The position numbers and the translations under genes are program-made. From IMG/VR virus record IMGVR_UViG_3300042376_001169, positions 1-27,052 of that record: a stretch of 27,052 nt of DNA; one strand, written 5' to 3'. The stretch comes from a virus. Shown here one piece after another: positions 4,507 to 16,773 of this stretch. How positions within the stretch are numbered: position 1 is the stretch's first letter; each line of letters starts with the position of its first letter. A model generated the notes under the pieces. The model was not told the DNA's origin and ran no database searches. It was given only the letters and a program-made list of their open reading frames with translations.

Positions 4507-6672
4507 ATGGACGAGTTGCTGAACAAGGACCGTGACGAGTCGGAGGCCGCTTCGCCGAAGGGCGTCGTTCCTGCGGGAATGGATCAGCCGGTGGCGCTGC
4601 CGATCGAGATGCAGCGGACGTTCTTCGCGAGCGTCGCGAAGATGCTGAGGAACCCGTCGCTGGCGTACCGCAAGGACCGCCAGTTGATGAAGCAGATGCG
4701 GAACGATCCGGACTGCATGGCTCCGCTCCAGCAGTTGCAGGTGTCGATCGCGGGGCTCGAGTGGCAGGTGAAGCCGTTCGACTCGAGGGATCCGATGCAG
4801 GAGGAGATCGCGGAGAGGACTTCGGAGATCATCAAGCGGATTCCGCGGCTCGCGGACCTGAGCCGGCATCTTCTCGAGGCGGTGTGGTACGGGTCGAGCG
4901 CCGCGAACATCATCTATCACCGCCGTCCGAACGGGATCATCGAGGTCAAGGATTGGATCCCGTTCCATCCGGACACGCTGACGGTCGATCTCGAGGGCGC
5001 GCCGGCGATCCGCGTCGGCCCGAGGTACTACGCGGACATGGACGGCACGGGCGGCGAGACGGTGCAGGGCTTCGACTCTCGCGTGCACAGGCTGACGGAC
5101 GTGGAGCGCCGCGCGGTGGTGTGGCATCGGTACATGGTGCAGGGTCCGGACTTCGACGATCCCTACGAGACGGCGTACGCGTACCTCGGCAGGGGCGTGC
5201 GCGACGTGGTGTGGTGGTACTGGAACTTGAAGCAGGCGGTGCTTCAGAACTGGGCGACGTACGCGGAGCGGTACGCGCAGGGCATCCGCGTCGGCTACTA
5301 CCCGATGGCGAACAAGGACGGCAAGAAGGAGATGGAGGACATCCTCCGGAACCTCGTGGGCGACGTGAGCGCGGTGGTCCCGCGCGCGACTCCCGGCCAG
5401 AAGGACTACGAAATCGAGATCAAGGAACCGGGCGCGGCGCGCGCGCAGGTGTTCGCCGACCTGACCGAATGGCTCGCGAAGAACATCAAGGAGCTGATCG
5501 TCGGCCAGAGCGCGACGAGCGAGGCGGTGTCGAGCGGCATCGGGTCGAACATCGGGACGCAGCACCAGAAGACGTTCACGCGGCAGATGCGGTTCGTCGC
5601 GGACGGGCTCGGCGAGACGATCACGGAAAACCTCGTGCGCGAGATCGTGGACATGAACTACGGTCCGCAGGAGTTCTACCCGCGGTTCGAGTTCTCGGTG
5701 GAGAGCCCGGAGAGCGAGAAGCGCCTCGAGGCCATCCGCATCTTCGTGAACGAGCTTGGCGGCACGGTGAGCGAGGCCGAGACTCGCAAGATGCTCGGGC
5801 TCGCGATCCCCGACGTGGACGAGCCCGTGCTGACGGGCAAGGTCCGCGACGTGATGCCGGAGATCGGCGAGAACGGCGGCGTGGAAGACGAAGAGGCAGA
5901 CGGTCCGATGCTGAACGCGAGGCAGGTGTTCGGCGGCATGAGCGAGAAGGAGTTGCGGCGCGAGGCTCGACGCCGGCGGCGCAAGGGGCGAAAGTCAACC
6001 GGAAACTGCGGGAACGGGTTCGGCGGGTTCACCGACTCGAACAAGTGCGCCTCCGGTCCGCACGACTATCCATCGACCCGCAAGAGCCCGCGCAAGAAGT
6101 CGCGAAACTCCCGCGAGATCGGCGAGGAGGTGATCCGCAAGCATCGTGTTCTTCTCGAGGAGGGCTACGACGAAGACCAGGCGTGGGCCATCGCCTACGA
6201 CATGGTTCAGAAGGGCGTGCATGAGCGGAGCAATCCGCAGCACGCCCGCGACTCGAAGTCCCATCGGGAAATGGTGGAAGAGCTGGTGCGCGGCGGCATG
6301 AGCGAGGAGCAGGCTTCGCAGGTCGTGAAGCGCAGGATGAAGGGGATCATGGAGAAGGGCGGCGATGGATTCGTGCCGCCGGAGTCCGTCGCCGCGAACG
6401 CGCGCAAGGCGCTCGAGGTCCGCGAGACGAAGCCGGAGTCGGAGCGCGGAATGACGCAAGTGGGCATCGCGCGCGCGCGTGACCTTGCAAACCGCAAGTC
6501 GGTTTCCATCGAGACGATCCGGCGCATGGTGTCGTTCTTCGAGCGGCACGAGGTGGACAAGAAGGGCGAGACGTGGGGCGAGCAGGGCAAGGGCTGGCAA
6601 GCGTGGAACGGATGGGGCGGCGACGAGGGATGGTCGTGGGCGCGCGGCATCGTCGAGAAGGAGGGCGATTGA
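4507..6672 (+). CDS. portal protein, Mu gp29/DUF935-like, with a multi-module C-terminal extension, 721 aa
   Basis: The portal forms the ring at the capsid vertex through which DNA passes. Residues of about 30-450 follow the Mu gp29-like (DUF935) pattern: an NDPDCMAPLQQLQVSIAG helix, GLEWQVKPFD, then the stem/wing helices with LIVGQSATSE and TQHQKTFTRQMRFVADG. After about residue 495 the protein carries extra material: a Gly/Cys linker (499-515), a basic stretch, two similar helical hairpins (545-567 with EEGYDEDQAWAIAYDMV, and 589-612 with RGGMSEEQASQVVKRRM) and a C-terminal domain (629-718) ending in WGGDEGWSWA (703-712). I recall similar terminal domains in other phage head proteins, of unknown function. 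GGAGG at 4496-4500 supports the start; the stop overlaps the next ATG (TGATG). Confidence 0.85.
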   Translation: MDELLNKDRDESEAASPKGVVPAGMDQPVALPIEMQRTFFASVAKMLRNPSLAYRKDRQLMKQMRNDPDCMAPLQQLQVSIAGLEWQVKPFDSRDPMQEEIAERTSEIIKRIPRLADLSRHLLEAVWYGSSAANIIYHRRPNGIIEVKDWIPFHPDTLTVDLEGAPAIRVGPRYYADMDGTGGETVQGFDSRVHRLTDVERRAVVWHRYMVQGPDFDDPYETAYAYLGRGVRDVVWWYWNLKQAVLQNWATYAERYAQGIRVGYYPMANKDGKKEMEDILRNLVGDVSAVVPRATPGQKDYEIEIKEPGAARAQVFADLTEWLAKNIKELIVGQSATSEAVSSGIGSNIGTQHQKTFTRQMRFVADGLGETITENLVREIVDMNYGPQEFYPRFEFSVESPESEKRLEAIRIFVNELGGTVSEAETRKMLGLAIPDVDEPVLTGKVRDVMPEIGENGGVEDEEADGPMLNARQVFGGMSEKELRREARRRRRKGRKSTGNCGNGFGGFTDSNKCASGPHDYPSTRKSPRKKSRNSREIGEEVIRKHRVLLEEGYDEDQAWAIAYDMVQKGVHERSNPQHARDSKSHREMVEELVRGGMSEEQASQVVKRRMKGIMEKGGDGFVPPESVAANARKALEVRETKPESERGMTQVGIARARDLANRKSVSIETIRRMVSFFERHEVDKKGETWGEQGKGWQAWNGWGGDEGWSWARGIVEKEGD

Positions 6673-11435: not shown

Positions 11436-11966
11436 ATGCCATCAACCGACTTTCATGTAACAGGCCCGGTCAAGATCCTGTGGGGACCCTCTTCGGCTGC
11501 AACCGAACTTGGATTTTCCGACAACGAGGATCTTGTCCGCATCACGTTCACGGACCATCAGCGCGTGTTCAGCCGCAACGACCAAGGCGACATGATCGGC
11601 GAAGTCGTTATGAGCGGAACTTCCGCGATCATCGACTTCACGCTCGTCTCGTGGGATCAAGCCCAGCTTCAGCAGTTGATCTCCCGCGTCCGCAAGGGCG
11701 GCACGGCGACCAACAACATCTCCCAAGAGGGCATCTTCGCTACGGTTGGAGGGACGACCGTGAATGGCGCGAGCCCGCGCACGATCGCTCTGAAGATCCA
11801 GCCGACGACCGTCGGCGAGACGGTCTACGACTTCCCGCTGGTCCGTCTCATCACGGGCCCGGAGATCATGGATCTCGGCAACACGCTCAAGCGCATCGCT
11901 CTTTCGTTTGGGACCGTGGCTCCGGCATCCGGAACCACGATCTGCACCACGACTCTCTCGACTTGA
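11436..11966 (+). CDS. major tail (tube) protein, 176 aa
   Basis: Likely the subunit of the tail tube. The sequence is beta-rich and begins with VTGPVKILWGP, followed by LGFSDNEDLVRITFTDHQRV and an EVVMSGTSAIIDFTLVSWDQ strand pair, the usual start of tube proteins with the 'LG.T..G..I.....' pattern. A long central turn and YDFPLVRLITGPEIMDLGN complete the barrel. ATG 11436 is chosen because GGAGG (11426-11430) lies five bases upstream. It lies between the tail completion gene and the two chaperone frames, the canonical tube position. No sheath protein is found beside it, which argues for a non-contractile tail. Confidence 0.75.
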   Translation: MPSTDFHVTGPVKILWGPSSAATELGFSDNEDLVRITFTDHQRVFSRNDQGDMIGEVVMSGTSAIIDFTLVSWDQAQLQQLISRVRKGGTATNNISQEGIFATVGGTTVNGASPRTIALKIQPTTVGETVYDFPLVRLITGPEIMDLGNTLKRIALSFGTVAPASGTTICTTTLST

Positions 11967-11977
11967 AAGGACCGTGA

Positions 11978-12238
11978 ATGTCTGCTCAGAAGATCGACCT
12001 GCTGGACGACCCTTGGGTTGTCGTGTTCAAGATCGGCGACAAGGAATACCGCGCCGATTCCCTCGTGTTCTCCTCGATCATCATGGACAAGGCGAAGGGC
12101 GAAGACGATCCGCCGAAGGAAGTCATCCTCGAGGCGATGAAGGAAGCCCTTGATTCGACCGAGGGGCTGTCCGACCACCTCATCTTCGCGATGTCGGTTC
12201 GTCTGACGAAGGCGATGACGAACGCGGGAAAAGGATGA
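11978..12238 (+). CDS. tail assembly chaperone, upstream (G-like) frame, 86 aa
   Basis: A short, acidic, helix-rich protein directly after the tube protein, with AAAGGA (11966-11971) six bases before the ATG. The sequence itself is not diagnostic, but position, size and the end of the gene are: its last sense codons read gcG-GGA-AAA-gga before TGA, a GGGAAAA slippery heptamer in the correct phase, followed by a strong hairpin. This is the layout of lambda G/GT, whose two products help fold the tape measure protein and recruit tube subunits. Most ribosomes would stop here; a minority would continue in the -1 frame into the reading frame at 12235-12489. Confidence 0.75.
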   Translation: MSAQKIDLLDDPWVVVFKIGDKEYRADSLVFSSIIMDKAKGEDDPPKEVILEAMKEALDSTEGLSDHLIFAMSVRLTKAMTNAGKG

Positions 12239-12265
12239 AGGCGGCGGCGCTGTTCGCCGCCGCTT
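12226..12265 (+). promoter_or_regulatory. programmed -1 ribosomal frameshift signal
   Basis: The slippery heptamer GGGAAAA (12226-12232) is read as G-GGA-AAA in the upstream frame. Six to eight bases later a hairpin forms: GCGGCGGCG (12241-12249) pairs perfectly with CGCCGCCGC (12255-12263) around CTGTT, extendable by A-T pairs (12238-12239 with 12264-12265). A -1 slip moves ribosomes to AGG (12232-12234) then ATG 12235, exactly the frame of the next gene. Heptamer, phase, spacing and stem all fit known signals. Confidence 0.85.
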
Positions 12266-12489
12266 ACGGTTTCCCTCCATCGGCTTGCGGGACGCAGGAG
12301 GAAATGTTGGGCCTGTTGCAGAACCTCCGCATGTCAATGGCGATCTCCTCTGGCATCCTTGCCCGGGGCGTGGCTGTTTGCTTCTCGTCTGAAGCGAGCG
12401 CGGAGCTCTTGAAGGACAGCGGAGCGCCGACGCAGGACATCCTCAAGGCGAAGTTGAACGCCATGAGGCAGAAGGCCGGTGTCAGGTGA
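12235..12489 (+). CDS. tail assembly chaperone, T-like frameshift extension, 84 codons
   Basis: This frame begins with ATGA overlapping the upstream stop, but it has no properly spaced ribosome binding site of its own: the purines lie immediately against the ATG. It is in the -1 frame relative to the upstream gene and directly follows the slippery site. Frameshifting would produce a 170-residue fusion (85 residues of the upstream frame, Arg from AGG, then these 84). The product is helical and Ala/Met/Leu-rich, with LLQNLRMSMAISSGILARG in the middle and a basic C-terminus. By analogy with lambda gpGT the extension would contact tube or tape measure. A separate 84-residue protein by coupled reinitiation is also possible. 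Confidence 0.75.
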   Translation: MKAAALFAAAYGFPPSACGTQEEMLGLLQNLRMSMAISSGILARGVAVCFSSEASAELLKDSGAPTQDILKAKLNAMRQKAGVR

Positions 12490-13292
12490 ACATCGCGACG
12501 CAGGCTCAGGTTCTTCGCGCCATCCGGCAAAGGCTGATCGACACGCTCGGTCTGCCGGAAAGCCGCGTCTATCTCACGAACGATCCGGTCTTTGCGGAAG
12601 GCATGGACTTCGTGGTTCAGATTTCGCCGATCGCGGTCGGCGCCACGAACGAGTTGAACCGCGCGGGGCTCGGCTTCGTGACGGAGCGATTCAGCGTGAC
12701 CACGTTCGTCCGGACGGCATCGGACAACGACGTGAAGAAGAACCGCCAGTTGACCGGCGAATCGCATGGCGTTCTGTATCGGCAGACGGCGATCCGTCAG
12801 GCGCTCATCCAGCACGATCTCGGCGGAATGCTCGCCGTGCCAATCCGGTTCGTCTCGAGCGGACCCGTCAAGGAGGAGCCGCGGACCCAGATGTACCTGG
12901 CCGCGACCGACGTGTTCATCTGCTCGTACGCGCTGGCTTGGCCTGTCGCCGGGATCTTCCGCTTCGGCTGGCGATCGACGCAGCCGACGTGGGCGCAGTT
13001 GGCGGAGGAGCGATCCTACGCGAACTCAACTCGCTACTCGATCACCACGCCTACGCGCTCTGGGACTCCCGCTTCGGAGTATCTTTGGTTCGCCTTCCCG
13101 GCGGAACTGCACTCGCTCGGGGTGGAGATTCGCACGGCAGCTGGCCTTGAGCCCTTCTACCGGACCGGATTCCCGCCGCCGAGCGGACCCGCCATCGGGA
13201 CGCTGACGCAGGCTGGCGTGACGTATCACCTCTACAGGCGCGCCTTCCCTACCACGGCGGCGAGCCTTACCTATGACGTGAGGGCCGGATGA
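12486..13292 (+). CDS. tail protein with terminator-like N-terminus and fibre-type C-terminal domain, 268 aa
   Basis: It starts with GTG overlapping the chaperone stop (GTGA) and ends in an ATGA overlap with the tape measure. Residues 1-150 (QVLRAIRQRLIDTLGLPESR, DFVVQISP, FSVTTFVRT, TDVFICSYA) have the alternating helix/strand layout of tail terminator proteins such as lambda gpU. Residues of about 158-268 are a beta domain with EYLWFAFPAELHSLGVEI and TYHLYRRAF, which I recall as a common C-terminal domain of tail-surface proteins. The combination is unusual, and a terminator would more often lie before the tube gene. A minor tail protein is the alternative. Confidence 0.45.
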   Translation: MNIATQAQVLRAIRQRLIDTLGLPESRVYLTNDPVFAEGMDFVVQISPIAVGATNELNRAGLGFVTERFSVTTFVRTASDNDVKKNRQLTGESHGVLYRQTAIRQALIQHDLGGMLAVPIRFVSSGPVKEEPRTQMYLAATDVFICSYALAWPVAGIFRFGWRSTQPTWAQLAEERSYANSTRYSITTPTRSGTPASEYLWFAFPAELHSLGVEIRTAAGLEPFYRTGFPPPSGPAIGTLTQAGVTYHLYRRAFPTTAASLTYDVRAG

Positions 13293-14749
13293 GCGGTATC
13301 CCTACCAACATCATCACCATTCAGATGCCGCCGGGAAGCGATCCCGCCGGCGGAGATGGAGCCTACGACTTCGGGCCGATGCTCGACGTGATGAAGGGCG
13401 TTCAACTCAGCGTCGGCAGCATCAACCAGAACGTCAAGGCGATCCTCGAGGTTCTGAAGCGCATGTCATCCATGCGGGGAGGTCCGTCATCGGCTGCGCG
13501 CGGCGGTTCGGTTGCGGCGTCTGTGTCCCCGAAGGCCGGATCGCGCGCGCGGTTCGCCGCCGATCTGCTCGAGTACCGCAAGATGATCCGCGGCGGCGAA
13601 TCGTTCGGTGGAATGATGCGGCAGTCTCACGCGGAGCTGCTTGCGCGATACAAGTCGAACCGGGAATCTCTCAGCGCACGAGAACTGCGCGCGGCCACCA
13701 GGCTCCGTTCCGTCGAGATATTCGGCGAATCGGTCGCGGCTCAGAACGCGGCCACGGAAGCCGCGGCGAAGGCCCGTCAGGAGGCTAAGTCTCAGAAGGA
13801 GGCGATCCGCGCGCAGCGCGAGGCTGCTCGAGCCGCCCGGGCGCAGCAGTCTGCCGACCTTCGCTCCAGTCGGAGCCGAATGACGAACAGCATGGCGCAG
13901 AGGGTGTCCGATCTTCGCCGGAAAGCCGGAATGCCCGGGGCCACGGTGTCCGGCATCGGTCTGACCGATGAGGAGAAGGCGGTTTTGGCGGGGGAGGCAA
14001 GCCCGTCCGGTTTGCCGGGAACCCGCGCGCATTTCCGGGCCGTTGGCGGCATCGTGGATCAGCTTGGGAATGCGGGTGGCGCTCCCGCTCCGGCTCCCGG
14101 GCGGTTCTCTTCGATGGCCGGCGGCGTCATGCGCATCGTCACGATGGTCGGACGGGTGCTGTCCGTGGCCGGGATGGTCACGAGCCTTCTCGGGAAGATT
14201 TGGGGCGTGTTGCGTTCCTTCTCGCAGTCGGCTATGGCTTCGCGAGCGTACTTCTCGCGAATCGACCCGGTGTTCGCGACGCTCGAGGCTCAGTTCCAGA
14301 TCGGGCAGTTGCTTGCCGACATGCGCGTGGCATCGTCTCCGATGGCCCGCGGCGCTGCGACGCAGTTCACGTCCACCCAGCTCGCCCGTCAGAGGGCCGA
14401 GGTTCCCATCCGAAAGGCATGGGAGGTCACGAAGTTCAGTCTTGGGACCATGTACGAGCAGGTCATGTTCGGAGGTTCGCTTCTCCTTGGTGGCGTGCTC
14501 TCCGGAGACGGAAGGAACGCCATGCTCGGACTGACCTCTCTTGCGATGTTCAATGCTCCCGGGCTCGGCTTCATCAACGCCTATGTCCAGTCTCTCATTC
14601 TTCGACTGGCGGGCGGGAACAACACGGCATCTGCGAACGCCCTGTTCATAGGCGACTTGGTTGATATGACCGGAGGCAGGTTCAGCACCACCAGTCCGTA
14701 CATGGGGCCGAAGGCGAACGCATCGAACTGGTGGGGGGCAAGGCCATGA
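13289..14749 (+). CDS. tail tape measure protein, 486 aa
   Basis: Tape measure proteins fill the tube, set tail length and later enter the host envelope. Evidence here is position (after the chaperone pair), size and composition: an N-terminal segment with repeated Met/Val/Leu heptads, a long Ala/Arg/Gln/Glu coiled-coil region (about 140-200), and a hydrophobic stretch around 281-305 (IVTMVGRVLSVAGMVTSLLG), with another Leu/Gly-rich region near 395-435. The start is an ATGA overlap. At 486 residues it is short for a siphovirus; with the usual rule of about 1.5 angstrom per residue the tail would be roughly 70 nm (estimate from general knowledge). Confidence 0.75.
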   Translation: MSGIPTNIITIQMPPGSDPAGGDGAYDFGPMLDVMKGVQLSVGSINQNVKAILEVLKRMSSMRGGPSSAARGGSVAASVSPKAGSRARFAADLLEYRKMIRGGESFGGMMRQSHAELLARYKSNRESLSARELRAATRLRSVEIFGESVAAQNAATEAAAKARQEAKSQKEAIRAQREAARAARAQQSADLRSSRSRMTNSMAQRVSDLRRKAGMPGATVSGIGLTDEEKAVLAGEASPSGLPGTRAHFRAVGGIVDQLGNAGGAPAPAPGRFSSMAGGVMRIVTMVGRVLSVAGMVTSLLGKIWGVLRSFSQSAMASRAYFSRIDPVFATLEAQFQIGQLLADMRVASSPMARGAATQFTSTQLARQRAEVPIRKAWEVTKFSLGTMYEQVMFGGSLLLGGVLSGDGRNAMLGLTSLAMFNAPGLGFINAYVQSLILRLAGGNNTASANALFIGDLVDMTGGRFSTTSPYMGPKANASNWWGARP

Positions 14750-16773
14750 GTACGACCGTTCTCTACAACACCGTCCTGCTCGAGCAGGTTCGCATCATGG
14801 AGTACCGCGTCGAGTCTCCCGCGAACTTCGAGTCTCCGCACACGGGGATCCTTCAGCACTTCGTCACGGGGGAGGCGCTTGTCTTCGTTGACAACGACTT
14901 CAGCCCGCAGGCGTTCCGTTCGTTGGTCATAAACAAGCTGAACGTGCCTCGGAAGCAGATGAAGATCGAGGTTGAGGACTCCAATCAGTCTCCGACGACG
15001 AAGTACACCCTGTTCGACAACACCGTGTACACGGAGAACTTCGACGAGGCCCACGGCCCGTTCTTCTCCGCGCAGGTGACTGCGATCACCGGGACTCGAT
15101 GCCTTCTCGTGAACTTCACGGCGCAGTGGACGGAATCGGGAGACTCGCTGAATGCGATCCGTTCCTACTACTGCGTGTCGTCGTTCTCGATCGACGAGAT
15201 CGGCAACGTCACGCTCAGGAAGACCGGATCATTGCAGATCCGTGCAAAGGAGAACTTCACGCCGCCGATGGGCGTGGCTCCGAGAAATCAGGATCGCGCG
15301 GGCGTGTCGAACACCGGCGTCTACTTCGGAGATTCCGTCCGGTCGGATGTCGTGACCGACTTCATCACGTCGAACATCTCGGGGAACGTCGGGCAGTTCC
15401 CCGACTGCTACCGGCGGTTCGCGGCGGGAAACCTCTATCCGGGCTTCCGGCGAATCCGTCAGGAATACGCCATCGACGAGAGCCGGACGCGCCTCATCTT
15501 CGACATCACGGATCAGGAATTCACTCGAGGGCTTCCCGCGCCGGCGAAGGTCGGAAACTGCTCCTTCACCTACGAGCGGAGCCTCGACGGCAAGACGAGC
15601 GCGATCGGAACGAAGCACTTCATCGCGTCCGTCAAGGGCGACAAGTTCGTGACCGCAGGGGCGCTGTTGACTCTCTGCATTCGTCTGTCGCAGAACAGGA
15701 TCGACTACGCGAAGGACGTGATCCAGCGCATCCGCGTGACCGAGGAGAACATGCTGACGGAGAACTCGATCTCGTATGAGGTCTTGGCTTTGTCGGCGTC
15801 CAGTCAGGCGTTTGTCGCGACGAGCGGCGACAATACCGAGGACAGGTCCGGTCAAGTCTCTCCGGTGGACACGAGCCTGCTCCTCAAGAACATCCTTTCG
15901 CCGGTCAAGCTCTCCGGAGGCAAGTTCGTCTTCACCCCGGCGAAGATGCCGGACGCGTACGGCAACAGCCTTATCGTCCGGGTGACTCCGTACGCGTTCG
16001 ACCACCACGACACGCAATCGCTCTCGTCCGCTTCGTTCAGCCTTCCATCGACGTTCCAGATCCCGAACGACGAGGGAAGCGGATTGCAGCCGGTGATCTA
16101 CCTGTTCCCGGGCGGATACTTCGATGCTTCCGAGGGGCAAGCAAACGACACTACCGGGAACGAAGACGCGATCTACAGGTACATTCCGCCGAAGACGGAG
16201 CCATATGTTCCCGCCGGCCCGAACAAGGGCGATCTCGAGAAGAACAAGAGGAACCCGAACTCAAGCGAAACTCCCAACCCGAACTTCTCGTCGAAGGGAG
16301 GAAGGAAGATCAACGTTCGTTCCGGCATCGTGATCTGTCCTCCCGTGTCTCCGAGCGCCAAGAGCAGGGTGTTTCAAGTGGCGGCTCCAATGGCCGTCTA
16401 CACCGACTTCATCGACGGCTCCAAGAAGAACGAGCCGCCGAACCGCTCGATAGGCGACGTGCCGGGAGGCTCCGTCGTGACCGACATGAACTACTCGTTC
16501 ACGTCCGGAACCTCCGACTTGAACGGCAACAGGATCATGGCGGCTGGCTACGACCGGACGGTGGCGATCTCATGCCCAGGCGATTTCCCCGGAACGGGAG
16601 AGTCGCCTACGCAGCCAGCCTTTGAATTGCAGGATCGGACCTATCAGGGCGAGACGTACCGGATCGTCACGTTCAACCCGAAGTCCATCTTGATGCCGAG
16701 CGACGAAACGCAGGGTCAGAATCAGCCCGCCTACACAGATGGCCTCGGTAGTCCGGAGGGGTATCTTGCATGA
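14746..16773 (+). CDS. unrecognised large tail-tip protein, 675 aa
   Basis: Starts at ATG 14746 in an ATGA overlap with the tape measure; an in-frame GTG 14731 would add five residues. I do not recognise the family. The sequence is beta-rich throughout: early segments FVTGEALVFVDNDFSP and KQMKIEVEDSN, then FSIDEIGNVTLRKTGS, and SLIVRVTPYAFDHHDTQSL near residue 415. Around residues 485-525 lies a Pro/Asn/Lys-rich linker followed by a smaller beta domain. By position just after the tape measure it should take the place of the distal tail or tail-hub protein. It is nearly the same length as the next gene, but I see no clear sequence repeat between them. Confidence 0.6.
   Translation: MSTTVLYNTVLLEQVRIMEYRVESPANFESPHTGILQHFVTGEALVFVDNDFSPQAFRSLVINKLNVPRKQMKIEVEDSNQSPTTKYTLFDNTVYTENFDEAHGPFFSAQVTAITGTRCLLVNFTAQWTESGDSLNAIRSYYCVSSFSIDEIGNVTLRKTGSLQIRAKENFTPPMGVAPRNQDRAGVSNTGVYFGDSVRSDVVTDFITSNISGNVGQFPDCYRRFAAGNLYPGFRRIRQEYAIDESRTRLIFDITDQEFTRGLPAPAKVGNCSFTYERSLDGKTSAIGTKHFIASVKGDKFVTAGALLTLCIRLSQNRIDYAKDVIQRIRVTEENMLTENSISYEVLALSASSQAFVATSGDNTEDRSGQVSPVDTSLLLKNILSPVKLSGGKFVFTPAKMPDAYGNSLIVRVTPYAFDHHDTQSLSSASFSLPSTFQIPNDEGSGLQPVIYLFPGGYFDASEGQANDTTGNEDAIYRYIPPKTEPYVPAGPNKGDLEKNKRNPNSSETPNPNFSSKGGRKINVRSGIVICPPVSPSAKSRVFQVAAPMAVYTDFIDGSKKNEPPNRSIGDVPGGSVVTDMNYSFTSGTSDLNGNRIMAAGYDRTVAISCPGDFPGTGESPTQPAFELQDRTYQGETYRIVTFNPKSILMPSDETQGQNQPAYTDGLGSPEGYLA

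Follow-up and report, generated by a model that had tools for sequence, protein, structure and literature searches.

Two overlapping reading frames of an uncultured phage are very probably joined by programmed -1 frameshifting and probably constitute a tail-assembly-chaperone gene pair of the lambda G/GT type. The window analysed here is the whole 27,052-nt stretch of IMGVR_UViG_3300042376_001169 (positions 1 to 27,052). Comparison of the window with its relatives strongly supports a -1 frameshift as the event that joins the two frames; the slippage itself and its frequency we infer from the sequence. As proposed, most ribosomes would read ORF1 and stop at the TGA at 12236, and a minority would be paused by a GC hairpin while GGA occupies the P site and AAA the A site; after slipping back by one base, these would continue in the overlapping frame and yield a 170-aa fusion. 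The coordinates of the relevant features are collected in Table 1.

Table 1. Features of the frameshift locus and the neighbouring genes, in window coordinates
Feature	Position	Strand	Basis
Presumed tail tube gene	11436..11966	+	named by position
ORF1 (86 aa), presumed to be the short tail assembly chaperone	11978..12238	+	TGA at 12236; homologues in relatives
Slippery heptamer GGGAAAA, phase G_GGA_AAA	12226..12232	+	sequence; in-phase GGGAAA[C/A] in 23/23 junctions
Extension in the -1 frame, 84 aa counted from the overlapping ATG, predicted to be reached by slippage	12235..12489	+	homologues
ATGA, in which the -1 frame Met codon overlaps the ORF1 stop	12235..12238	+	not conserved
Likely stimulatory GC hairpin with a 5-nt loop and 11 pairs, one of them G-U	12239..12265	+	spacer of 6 nt from the heptamer
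Intervening gene, 268 aa, behind the chaperone pair and before the presumed tape measure	12486..13292	+	homologues aligned
Presumed tape-measure gene, 486 aa	13289..14749	+	gene order, weak PHROG matches of homologues

The slippery junction and its conservation

Re-reading of the letters in both frames confirmed the initial annotation in placing the GGGAAAA heptamer in exact slippery phase. ORF1 is read at the site as GC[G GGA AAA] GGA TGA, that is, in the X_XXY_YYZ phase and one sense codon before the stop, so that each of the two tRNAs would be able to pair again after a backward shift of one base. Read in the -1 frame as GGG AAA AGG ATG AAG, the site predicts the junction peptide AGK-R-MK and a fusion product 170 aa long (85+1+84), which reproduces the annotated product and its entry into the second frame at ATG 12235. 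The second frame, as had been noted, lacks a well-spaced Shine-Dalgarno sequence, and an AAGG abuts the ATG. The codons of the site are rare in 12 core genes picked from the list of open reading frames of the window, with AAA accounting for 6 of 193 Lys codons and GGA for 83 of 429 Gly codons. In the 4886 codons of the same genes, in-phase XXXYYYZ heptamers occur 8 times, including 2 with Y = A or T. Taken alone, the signal in the window is thus only suggestive and only modestly above chance.

Relatives were collected by scans of viral sequences with ORF1, ORF2, the capsid and the portal and with alignments of both frames, and by one genome scan. The resulting set has 23 junctions, from the window, 20 further viral contigs and two contigs of metagenome-assembled genomes, one labelled alphaproteobacterial (L131) and the other actinobacterial (L132). 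The contigs are related and near-identical rows are included, so the counts given below are not independent; the 23 junctions fall into 15, 14 and 11 clusters at 95%, 90% and 80% DNA identity, respectively. The counts leave out one contig that ends before the junction (L029), one that ends inside its second tube gene (L028), further copies of counted contigs, and loci from the capsid and portal scans that do not reach the junction. The alignments cover part of the set, namely 18 junctions for ORF1, 18 for the extension and 20 (19 distinct) for the hairpin. Homologues of ORF1 are 44-98% and those of the extension 55-99% identical to the window proteins, and the extension contains an invariant peptide, KAAAxFAAAYGFPPS, which begins as KAAALFAAAY in the -1 frame of the window.

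The alignment of relatives that the initial annotation had proposed as a check bore out the frameshift: the heptamer, its phase and the frame overlap are kept in 23/23 junctions, in each of which the first frame ends one sense codon past the heptamer and overlaps an open -1 frame. A junction with both frames intact and the heptamer lost, which had been named as evidence against the proposal, was looked for among these 23 and not found. The heptamer is GGGAAAC in 19 junctions and GGGAAAA in the remaining four (the window, L005, L038 and L041). The most telling relative is L130, with a capsid only 44% identical to that of the window and a first frame that is not found with the window ORF1 (tblastn, E 0.01), yet with the heptamer, the stop and the hairpin in the same places. 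When the whole viral collection was scanned with a pattern in which GGGAAA, the stop and the conserved coding positions were fixed, 20 contigs were recovered, the same 20 viral relatives already known; when the heptamer was left free in the pattern, the loci collected here had only GGGAAAC and GGGAAAA before the stop and the stem.

A matched control for the encoded peptide is available within the window itself. A second in-phase heptamer, GGGAAAC at 15426-15432, lies inside the gene at 14746-16773 and encodes the same Ala-Gly-Asn. Among 17 of the 23 loci, window included, the Gly at this control site is kept in 17/17 and the heptamer in only 4/17, three of these four being the window and its near-identical group. 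The dipeptide alone, therefore, does not hold the heptamer in place, and the junction heptamer (23/23 vs 4/17) is conserved beyond the demand of the peptide that it encodes. The control heptamer thus looks like a chance occurrence, given that it is kept in so few loci; the -1 frame at that site would stay open for 117 codons.

The hairpin

The nine-pair perfect GC stem of the initial annotation (12241-12249 with 12255-12263) stood up to re-examination, and the spacer of eight bases assigned to it did not: the stem extends by one A-U and one G-U pair to 11 pairs (12239-12249 with 12255-12265), which shortens the spacer to 6 nt. This hairpin, which is kept in the relatives, is a probable stimulator of the shift, on weaker support than the heptamer, because about two thirds of its pairs are forced by the conserved KAAAxFAAAY. 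In the register of the stem, the first positions of the alanine codons pair with second positions, so that only third positions are free.

The fold of the 68 nt from 12233 is unexceptional for its composition (z = -1.37, 18 of 200 shuffles being as good). With the peptide kept constant, a stem that folds as well as that of the window arises in 4.7% of random synonymous recodings (p = 0.047); for single contigs, p ranges from 0.01 to 0.214 and lies between 0.1 and 0.22 in 9/23. Over the 23 contigs, the mean hairpin energy is -21.2 kcal/mol, compared with -15.3 (sd 0.73) for synonymous recodings drawn from the codon usage of the window in every contig, a contrast that is inflated by the relatedness of the contigs. 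Covariation is slight. Among the 19 distinct rows, 95.2% of the pair cells are standard, vs 93.5% with shuffled partners (2/500 shuffles as high), and the covariation score was reached in 1/500 shuffles. Sliding the partners by +3 gives a score of 0.120 vs 0.101 in register, but with far fewer pairs (67.5%). At one third-position pair, L052 and L037 have C-G in place of G-C, a change on both sides; 7/19 rows lack pair 72-84 and 3/19 lack pair 75-81. An outer helix suggested by RNAalifold (12226-12275), which pairs GGGAA of the heptamer with TTCCC of the GFPP codons and encloses the hairpin, was not adopted, as the bases involved are fixed by the peptide.

Alternative readings and the identity of the pair

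The overlap of the -1 frame ATG with the ORF1 stop could also mean that the two frames are separate genes, the second of which is started by reinitiation at the ATGA at 12235, with the heptamer incidental or competing and two or three products made. The overlap recurs in 5/22 relatives (L005, L038, L052, L041 and L130) and, with the window, in 4 of the 11 clusters at 80% identity, which speaks for such coupling; it is nevertheless a very unlikely explanation of the locus. The junction codon is CTA in 14/23, CTG in 3/23 and ATG in 6/23, so that 17 junctions have no start codon (ATG, GTG or TTG) at this position, whereas the heptamer is present in all 23, and coupling was rejected as a conserved feature. 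In the 17 without ATG, the only nearby -1-frame starts are a TTG or GTG at -51 in five contigs, an ATG or TTG at +15 in five, and starts at +69/+72; L045 has no -1-frame start within reach of the junction. Initiation at +15 or beyond would truncate the invariant KAAAxFAAAYGFPPS or leave it out altogether. With no start at the junction and later starts that would damage this peptide, most relatives would reach the full second frame by frameshifting. The poorly placed AAGG and the hairpin, which begins 4 nt into the second frame, also argue against initiation at the ATG.

The recurrence of ATG has a simpler source: a frame-0 stop of the form TRA forces NTR in the -1 frame, that is, Leu, Met, Val or Ile, and ATG can thereby recur without being a start. 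The same constraint accounts for the CTA at the junction, a codon that makes up 3/319 Leu codons in the core genes. Most simply, ATG 12235 is a plain Met codon of the -1 frame. The suggestion of the initial annotation that ATGA coupling competes with frameshifting was accordingly not upheld as a conserved route. Some reinitiation may take place in the window. A restricted version, very unlikely, is that in the ATGA lineages (the window group, L052, L041 and L130) the extension is also made alone by termination-reinitiation, with one hairpin tuning three products, and that the CTA and CTG sisters frameshift only. If true, these lineages would present a natural series of coupling and recoding replacing one another.

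It is also conceivable that the heptamer and stem arose from the G+C-rich codons of a conserved peptide and are idle, the frames having been split by sequencing error or decay. The extent to which KAAAxFAAAY dictates the stem and the background frequency of in-phase heptamers in the core genes both lend themselves to this reading, but all 23 junctions, from separate contigs, agree in the split, the phase and the heptamer, which, set against the poor retention of the control heptamer, makes it extremely improbable; because of this conservation, the question of whether the frameshift site is more than chance can be regarded as settled.

The remaining issue is whether the frameshifted pair encodes a tail assembly chaperone or some other virion or assembly factor at the same place, an unlikely option that nonetheless draws on several negative searches. 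Searches of Pfam and PHROGs gave no match for either frame of the window, and the homologues of both give only weak PHROG matches of unknown function; single-homologue PHROG matches at E 0.009 or worse were set aside. A search of the PDB with the ORF1 sequence returned one chance row. The model of ORF1 is a small alpha/beta domain (pLDDT 83), and that of the extension is poor (pTM 0.37). The ORF1 fold has no match at E 0.001 or better in the PDB or among viral models, the best viral model being A0A516L3X5 (E 0.011, TM 0.69), and the known chaperones HK97 gp13 and YqbN are absent from the best 50 VIA-align matches listed. The VIA-align match of ORF1 to 3fgx is too weak to count for much (Z 4.4, rmsd 4.4, 74 residues aligned, among unrelated rows of up to Z 5.3), but points in the expected direction, as one study counts 3fgx among phage tail assembly chaperones (PMC9603447). 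Gene order also argues for a chaperone: the presumed tube gene is followed by the frameshift pair, the 268-aa gene and the 486-aa tape-measure-like gene. The annotated position between tube and tape measure, as in lambda G/GT, is thus retained as to order and corrected as to adjacency, since the 268-aa gene separates the pair from the tape measure. The names tube, chaperone and tape measure are presumptive and follow from gene order, in the case of the chaperone together with the frameshift architecture.

The presumed tube protein of the window has no PHROG match, and its sequence search of the PDB gave only chance rows. In two relatives, L052 (8609-9133 and 9136-9702, tblastn 50% and 41%) and L028 (5602-6045 and 6106-6387, 44% and 44%), the presumed tube gene is immediately followed by a diverged second copy of itself, a tandem duplication just before the frameshift pair. 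The 268-aa protein was aligned with its homologues (13 sequences, the L130 member being 29% identical), and 2 of the 13 give a weak match to phrog_3934 (unknown function). The 486-aa protein of the window does not match phrog_305 or phrog_3519, both of tape measures; among its homologues (n = 12), one matches phrog_305 (E 8e-4) and one phrog_3519 (0.03). The presumed tape measures that are complete are short and similar in length (391-520 aa among the relatives measured), as would suit a short tail if the gene is the ruler.

Phage isolates gave no tblastn match for the capsid, the extension or the 268-aa protein of the window, or for the tube or capsid of L130, and the 8 records obtained with ORF1 (E about 1-3 over 29 residues) were taken as chance. 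The portal alone has distant matches among isolates (60 records, all under 60% identity). The C-terminal part of this Mu-type portal (window 6000-6669, from about residue 500) occurs on its own in many viral contigs, being the main match region in at least 48 loci (L063-L110) among the 80 matches listed; Vibrio phages carry it in a protein called coil-containing, and it has the appearance of a mobile domain. The gene at 1012-2208, which lies upstream of the structural module, matches phrog_1617 (unknown function; E 1e-22). Searches for Rfam families and tRNAs yielded 0 of each.

Comparison with known frameshifted chaperone genes

A -1 frameshift is reportedly widespread in tail chaperone genes, as described by Xu, Hendrix and Duda in 2004. 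The slippery heptamer of lambda is GGGAAAG. The wide occurrence of the shift in these genes is also stated in a later source, which describes in lambda gpG/gpGT the same arrangement, with -1 slippage near the end of the first gene connecting two overlapping frames (PMC5009743). The locus described here further resembles lambda in its G_GGA_AA-type heptamer and in its place between the tail shaft gene and the tape measure. It differs in that no sequence relation was found with profile libraries, in the 268-aa gene before the tape measure, and in the A-site codon, which is AAA or AAC here and AAG in lambda. By analogy with the lambda model for the division of labour between the short and long chaperones, as given in that source (PMC5009743), we infer that the tape measure would be the target of the ORF1 part and the tube protein that of the extension.

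The closest precedent seen is gp18/gp19 of the Burkholderia phage KL1, for which GGGAAAC at the gp18 stop is described, together with a stem-loop predicted downstream and one gene that separates the pair from the tape measure (PMC3483164). The heptamer, confirmed at the gp18 stop in the KL1 sequence (JF939047), is that of 19/23 junctions here, and a gene between chaperone and tape measure is also recorded there in KL1, HK97 and others (PMC3483164). Unlike the 86-aa ORF1, the first frame of KL1 has 142 aa, and gp18 and ORF1 are not related by hhalign (probability 0.1). In the haloarchaeal virus HCTV-1, whose host is archaeal, the g-t frameshift takes place at G_GGA_AAC (PMC5009743), a heptamer shared with most of the relatives studied here.

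Each element of the locus, then, has a precedent, and the new part is a protein lineage without a Pfam or PHROG match. The analysis adds a conserved frameshift gene to an uncultured phage group in which neither frame matches these libraries, and otherwise confirms a known pattern. Annotators of this group should join both frames, and the set of junctions, 19 with GGGAAAC and four with GGGAAAA, could serve for comparing Asn- with Lys-decoded A-site slippage in bacterial phages.
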